A stretch of 44,788 nucleotides of DNA, taken from NCBI GenBank assembly GCA_004524535.1, contig SDNY01000012.1, forward strand, positions 1-44,788, in the 5' to 3' direction. Made by a program: the position numbers and the translations under genes. Shown piece by piece: positions 7,970 to 8,658 of this stretch (position 1 is the first letter of the stretch; each line of letters starts with the position of its first letter). The stretch is from Promethearchaeota archaeon (GTDB lineage Archaea; Asgardarchaeota; Lokiarchaeia; Sigyniarchaeales; SOKP01). The notes under the pieces are model-generated. The model was given only the letters and a program-made list of their open reading frames with translations. It did not search any database and was not told the DNA's origin.

Positions 7970-8276
7970 AAAATTAAAAAATTATTCTTAAACTCTAATA
8001 TCTCTTTAAGATGTATGTGAATAATATTACTATAAAAGAATTATTCTCTAAATATTAAATTTATTGATTGTAAATCATATTTTCAGAAAATAACCTCTTA
8101 TATGATTCATATAATCTCCTTTCTTAAAATGCGATTTCTATAAAATTTTTATCTTAAAAATGTATATAATAGAATTATAACATTTTATATAGTAAAAATT
8201 CCCAATTTATATTAAAATAAAAAAAAGGATTGGTGTTTTTATAATTTCCAAATCGGAACTTACTAAAAAAAAAAAC
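7970..8276. other. AT-rich intergenic region between tRNA-Val and the small ORF
   Basis: About 300 bp without a credible ORF or RNA fold. It must contain the tRNA-Val promoter (reverse) and that of the small ORF (forward). TATA-like stretches such as TTTTATATA near 8184-8192 are present but indistinct from the AT-rich background. Confidence 0.4.
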
Positions 8277-8534
8277 ATGAAAAAGGCTATTATAATAATT
8301 GCCGTTGTTGCTCTTTTAACGACTTTTTCAATAACGATAATTATTATTTATTTAAATAGTCAGTATTATGAAGGTGATGGCAAAGATTCAGATGACGATG
8401 ACAATAGCGCAGATGCCAGTGATTCTGGAGGAGGAGGCTGAGGATGTATTATCTTTAAGCAAGGCTTCTCAAGTTATAACCTCAATAAAATATACGGCAT
8501 TAAATTAATACAAATCCAATACCAAGTATTTTAA
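8277..8534 (+). CDS. Candidate membrane-anchored selenoprotein (in-frame TGA at 8439-8441)
   Basis: This ORF starts at ATG 8277. It encodes a Lys-Lys start, a long hydrophobic helix (residues 4-25), an Asp/Ser-rich linker (about 32-50) and a Gly4 run (51-54), then TGA. If TGA is decoded as selenocysteine the frame continues Gly-Cys and 28 more residues to TAA at 8532-8534 (85 aa, Sec at residue 55). The topology of a single N-terminal helix, disordered acidic/Gly tail and Gly-rich Sec site recalls eukaryotic SelK/SelS. A hairpin with a eukaryote-like SECIS core follows 30 nt after the TAA and about 120 nt after the TGA. If TGA is simply a stop, the product is a 54-aa peptide ending at 8441. 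The tail after TGA shows no recognisable family. No Sec machinery gene lies in the window, so recoding is inference. Confidence 0.4.
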
Positions 8535-8550
8535 AAGAATAACCAAAAAT

Positions 8551-8623
8551 CGCCCCGAATTGAATGATTCTTACGAGAAAAAATGGAGTCGTAAGAGGAC
8601 TGACCTTTGCGAAGGTATCGGTG
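8551..8623 (+). ncRNA. Structured 3'-UTR element resembling a SECIS
   Basis: Stem TCTTACGA (8569-8576) pairs perfectly with TCGTAAGA (8589-8596) around a 12-nt A-rich loop. Directly below are a U-G wobble (8568/8597) and then TGA (8565-8567) opposite GAC (8598-8600). These give tandem A-G and G-A appositions, the UGAN/NGAN quartet of eukaryotic SECIS elements. The loop begins GAAAAAA, supplying the unpaired adenines. Below, CCGA (8555-8558) can pair with TCGG (8618-8621), enclosing a second hairpin ACCTT-TGCG-AAGGT (8603-8616). The GC content is clearly higher than the flanks. Alternatives are another L7Ae-binding kink-turn RNA or a terminator. Confidence 0.45.
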
Positions 8624-8658
8624 AAATAAAAATAAAAAATAAAAAATAAATTATAGAT

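Follow-up and report, generated by a model that had tools for sequence, protein, structure and literature searches.

The UGA at position 8439 of a 44,788-nt stretch of Lokiarchaeal DNA (hereafter, the window) is very probably decoded as selenocysteine (Sec), and comparison across related loci identifies the gene that carries it as a likely real selenoprotein of a new, Loki-restricted family of small membrane proteins. Lokiarchaea are close relatives of eukaryotic cells. The window (G000:C37) belongs to a Lokiarchaeota-like MAG that is 99% complete; named relatives, traced through the neighbouring phosphoglycerate kinase (PGK) gene, are almost all Candidatus Lokiarchaeota MAGs, with LW60_4 (95%) the closest. 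The original prediction had proposed a selenoprotein with a eukaryote-like SECIS element. That proposal is upheld by the Sec machinery of the genome, by a SECIS covariance model, and by the conservation of TGA and Cys over about 43 loci. The reading frame opens at ATG 8277 on the + strand, reaches an in-frame TGA at 8439–8441, continues with GGA TGT (Gly-Cys) and ends at TAA 8532–8534; these coordinates, like those of the stem-loop, had been given correctly. The gene is alone on the + strand, flanked by a minus-strand tRNA-Val and a minus-strand PGK, the latter identified from its sequence. This monocistronic gene would encode a single-pass membrane selenoprotein of about 85–96 aa, with the following features.

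8244–8276, + strand: possible N-terminal extension ISKSELTKKKN from the non-ATG start ATT 8244; aligns with homologue N-termini
8277–8438, + strand: coding part before Sec, with N-terminal transmembrane (TM) helix, acidic linker and Gly4 (sequence; family HMM)
8439–8441, + strand: TGA predicted to be read as selenocysteine (about 43 homologues have TGA in this column)
8445–8447, + strand: TGT, Cys of the putative Sec-x-Cys pair (Cys at +2 in 28 of 43 members)
8442–8534, + strand: post-Sec tail and TAA stop; little conserved beyond the Cys
8551–8626, + strand: SECIS element in the 3′ UTR (R2 covariance model; covariation in both SECIS sets)
8555–8621, + strand: lower stem, CCGA 8555–8558 / TCGG 8618–8621 (sequence; kept in the same-genus homologue G004; helix 1 covariation in relatives)
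8564–8567, + strand: AUGA, 5′ side of the quartet (sequence ATGA; same plan in the SelD SECIS)
8568–8597, + strand: upper stem 8568–8576/8589–8597 and A-rich apical loop 8577–8588 (sequence, folding; helix 2 covariation)
8598–8599, + strand: GA, 3′ side of the quartet (sequence)
8603–8616, + strand: side hairpin ACCT-TTGCGA-AGGT, 8603–8606/8613–8616 (folding; helix 3, weaker support)

A single-sequence search recovered a homologue from the same genus (G004), 93% identical in DNA and with the TGA and SECIS core unchanged, as well as faint matches in another genus, likewise with a TGA and a SECIS. Between the window and G004, the part before Sec (8277–8438) differs by an in-frame 18-nt indel, the tails differ by one synonymous and five non-synonymous changes, and the G004 frame meets a TAG four codons before the stop position of the window; from the AUGA side onward the SECIS is unchanged. 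The start codon is uncertain: homologues begin about 11 codons before ATG 8277, at a position occupied by ATT (8244) in the window. The N-terminus of one of them (L130), MSESELTELRKGK, is the counterpart of the window frame upstream of ATG 8277, and the extension is identical in G004. On this alignment, ATT 8244 is a possible start codon of the gene.

The eukaryote-like SECIS at 8551–8626 is, on comparative grounds, the element that would direct decoding of the UGA. It reads ATGA[TTCTTACGA]GAAAAAATGGAG[TCGTAAGAG]GA CTG ACCT TTGCGA AGGT, with an upper stem of 9 bp (eight Watson-Crick pairs and one U-G) directly between ATGA and GA and an apical loop, GAAAAAATGGAG, of 12 nt. The side hairpin and the lower stem, neither of which had been part of the original prediction, complete the element. 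The SECIS of SelD in the same genome, ATGA[ATCTTATGT]AAAAATGTTAG[ACATAAGTT]GA CTAACC TTGCGA TGGT with the lower stem CTCCATA/TATGGAG, shares one plan with it. The Asgard type I model comprises a GA_GA core, an upper stem of 7–15 bp and an apical loop of 8–20 nt (PMC11227280); the window element, with AUGA_GA, 9 bp and 12 nt, agrees with this eSECIS-like type, and the earlier worry about a short apical stem is thus moot. At 8603–8616 of the window and in the SECISs of sets A4 and A5, a side hairpin with a GCRA-like loop lies between the quartet and the lower stem, giving a three-way junction. This suggests a lateral hairpin that apparently goes without mention in the published Asgard SECIS model (PMC11227280).

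Plain folding of the element region showed no clear departure from shuffled sequence (z = −1.33). Since folding energy was not significant, homology-based tests were used. Covariance model R1, which includes the window among its building sequences, detected SECISs in the great majority of same-family genomes, with up to 11 per genome. To avoid circularity, a second model, R2, was restricted to 26 SECISs from known selenoproteins of relatives (SelD, MvhD/FrhD and Prx-like), aligned to the structure of R1. R2 matched 8551–8626 with 53.7 bits (E 1.5e-13), while the next match in the 44.8-kb window had 12.7 bits (E 0.45); the E-values of both models are rough, as their calibrations were shortened. 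In the known set, 85% of cells were paired versus 61% after shuffling and ≤50% after sliding, with 133 double-change cells versus 48; in the small-protein set, the values were 81% versus 64% and 202 versus 73. The upper and lower stems are well backed by covariation in both sets. The side hairpin is weaker, with 62–68% of cells paired, one near-invariant C-G pair and a recurrent GCRA-like loop, and it scored above shuffled sequence in 64 of 77 cases. Both the covariance-model search and the paired changes in the stems speak for the fold first proposed, and Loki SECISs prove searchable by covariance model.

In the proposed decoding, tRNA-Sec and EFsec would insert Sec at the UGA. The genome encodes SepSecS (E 6.8e-117), EFsec (E 9.6e-73, above the curated cut-off), PSTK (E 5.3e-42, below the curated cut-off) and a SelD that itself carries an in-frame TGA. 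In relatives, tRNA-Sec lies 200–300 nt upstream of SepSecS, and this synteny led to the gene of the window genome (anticodon TCA; L057, G000:C188), which is likewise upstream of SepSecS. One insertion of ~30 nt lies in its D-arm region and another, of ~31 nt, in its T-arm; we infer both to be introns. G004 has the D-arm-region insertion only, and a T-arm intron is known from Lokiarchaeota (PMC5330540). Because of these intron-like inserts, the gene scores 24 bits with Rfam, far under the cut-off, and would therefore be missed by standard scans. The candidates for tRNA-Sec obtained from Rfam alone were rejected as Arg, Ser or Gly tRNAs. The machinery on which the original prediction depended is thus present in the genome.

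Upstream of the SECIS matches, many frames encode a small TM protein in which a Gly run precedes a TGA. A family HMM (A3), made from 25 of these proteins, was run against 295 genomes with no use of SECIS information. Its strong matches fell only in this Loki family, and nearly all of them are read with one TGA; the window protein, itself part of the HMM, matched at E 7.9e-18. A SECIS was located beside the gene in 12 of 12 tested HMM loci (R1, E 1e-13 to 1e-22); nine of these lie outside the training set, and L269 was seen through its SECIS. Three weak matches (L288, L289 and L300) were rejected for want of both Sec and SECIS. With further members added from additional matches, the TGA is held at one column in about 43 homologues, all from one Loki family. 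Common to the members are a basic N-terminus and a single TM helix, followed by an acidic/Gly linker, a little-conserved tail and a SECIS whose core lies 50–125 nt after the TGA.

The residues after the TGA argue that translation runs past it. The motif is GGG-U-x-C in 28 of the 43 members and U-P-x-x-C in 10, which places a Cys at +2 or +4 in 38 of 43, versus 2 of the 421 further tail positions examined; the sequences are related, and the counts hence do not represent independent events. The remaining five members carry U-P-G (three, without a nearby Cys) or C-G-U-G-G (two). The tails have otherwise diverged, with 35 distinct six-residue starts, and substitution counts give no sign of strong purifying selection beyond the motif and little constraint past the Cys. 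Of the conserved downstream frame that the original prediction called for, the Cys is evident and the rest of the tail is weakly constrained. This weak conservation, together with the kink-turn-like nature of the quartet (PMC11227280), would suit an ordinary stop at 8439. The product would then be a membrane peptide of 54 aa with Gly4 at its end, and the RNA element would be otherwise employed, for instance as a kink-turn bound by L7Ae or in mRNA stability. We consider this very improbable: the Cys is concentrated just after the TGA, the element fits the pattern of known selenoprotein SECISs, that of SelD in the same genome among them, and just 2 of the 37 long open frames in the window end in TGA, so the use of this codon throughout the family would be unexpected for ordinary stops. 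There is also an overlapping 46-codon ORF at 8368–8508, which the SECIS might serve instead, as it might an upstream gene on one transcript. That it does either is hardly credible, since the TGA-bearing frame is the one kept across other loci and the nearest upstream genes, tRNA-Val and a 159-aa ORF, are both on the opposite strand; the overlapping ORF was rejected.

Sec decoding of the TGA is thus retained as the preferred reading. A Cys form at the Sec position, which would give the classical Sec/Cys alignment (TGC or TGT against the TGA), was absent from the strong HMM matches in the 295 genomes. Cys-containing homologues are supportive where present and are no requirement for a selenoprotein. 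A Pfam search with family members returned nothing significant and recognised no domain, in keeping with the earlier statement that the tail has no known family. Conserved gene neighbours were not found beyond genus-level synteny. Among PGK loci in named genomes, that of LW60_4 (L214), the closest, alone keeps the SECIS; no comparable match was seen at the 38 others, which indicates that the location of the gene is not conserved, although some of these contigs end near PGK.

Other Sec candidates and variants were seen in the same material. Six loci (L133, L135, L181, L184, L190 and L198) encode a 37-aa zinc-ribbon-like protein (C..C ... C..C ... FKFK/LRFK), a second and apparently new candidate; in 6 of 6, the TGA is followed at once by TAA or TAG, with a SECIS just downstream, and a C-terminal Sec is possible. 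L064, L065, L072, L085, L096 and L284 encode related small TM proteins that have a SECIS, a long acidic linker and a longer tail. In this set a Cys precedes the TGA (CDIF-U, CDLPI-U, CF-U or CKI-U), and the longer tail is conserved among L072, L085 and L096. Four homologues from genus g6 (L285, L286, L287 and L290) end NGGG-U-G-stop or NGGG-U-C-stop. Among these, a SECIS match was obtained for L287 only, and it is weak (28 bits); for this reason, the g6 genes may be decaying or using a diverged SECIS.

Huang et al. (2024) used members of known selenoprotein families as queries against more than 400 Asgard genomes and reported seven families (PMC11227280), none of which resembles the small membrane family; they report no selenoprotein family specific to eukaryotes. 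Because that survey sought known families only, it could not see genes that have a SECIS but lack a known homologue. The terms small selenoprotein, membrane selenoprotein and transmembrane are absent from a 2026 review (PMC13188914), and no earlier description of such a family was found in the literature covered, which was partial and did not include supplements. The family is therefore apparently new to the literature. It adds to Lokiarchaea a widespread membrane selenoprotein for which no Cys form was found, and with so small a gene one can test how far the Loki selenoproteome extends and where eukaryote-type selenocysteine insertion came from.

The mean net charge is +3.0 in the N-terminal flank before the TM helix and −2.4 in the linker after it (50 proteins, including a second subfamily). 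By the positive-inside rule, this asymmetry predicts an N-in/C-out topology for the family, with Sec outside. The TM helix would anchor the protein with its N-terminus inside, and the acidic/Gly linker would present the Sec-x-Cys pair, probably as a selenenylsulfide. Held to the membrane in this flexible way, the pair could then serve at the outer face as a thiol/selenol redox relay, which is the biochemical function that we infer. Sec-Cys pairs at such short spacing are typical of selenenylsulfide chemistry. A site for metal binding or a sacrificial antioxidant is a less likely but serious alternative, consistent with a short motif that lacks an enzyme domain and with the further Cys residues of some members; the close Sec-Cys spacing would rather favor the redox relay.

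The layout of the family recalls eukaryotic SelK and SelS, which have one N-terminal TM helix, a Gly-rich stretch, Sec near the C-terminus and a eukaryotic-type SECIS in the 3′ UTR. The orientation of SelK/SelS is generally described as the reverse of N-in/C-out, with the Sec-bearing C-terminus on the cytosolic side. The label "SelK/SelS-like" given at the outset thus holds as an analogy of layout and is not supported as a statement of kinship: eight members gave no SelK/SelS Pfam match at E up to 1, strong matches are confined to one Loki family, and the charge pattern predicts the opposite orientation. The Loki proteins also differ in their U-x-C motif and usually longer post-Sec tail. Homology is hard to test by sequence because the proteins are short and of low complexity, and the g6 members that end U-G or U-C resemble SelS in stopping one residue after Sec; even so, it is most unlikely that the family is a true homologue or forerunner of either protein. 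Were it a forerunner, single-pass Gly-tail selenoproteins with eukaryote-like SECISs would predate eukaryotes.

The Lokiarchaeal SelD, FrhD/MvhD and Prx-like selenoproteins (PMC11227280; Mariotti et al. 2016, cited there) share with the family the organisms, the machinery and the SECIS plan of AUGA, 9-bp upper stem, A-rich apical loop, GA and lower stem. They differ in the protein, which here is small, unrelated and built on a single TM helix, with no enzyme domain and no Cys form found.

In mammalian thioredoxin reductase, a flexible C-terminal Gly-Cys-Sec-Gly tail relays electrons. Its GCUG sequence resembles the Loki motif in that a flexible tail carries a Gly-flanked Sec close to a Cys, and this analogy suggests selenenylsulfide/dithiol exchange by the Sec-Cys pair on its tethered linker. 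Unlike the reductase, the Loki protein has no enzyme domain, its spacing is U-x-C, and its tail is predicted to be anchored in the membrane.
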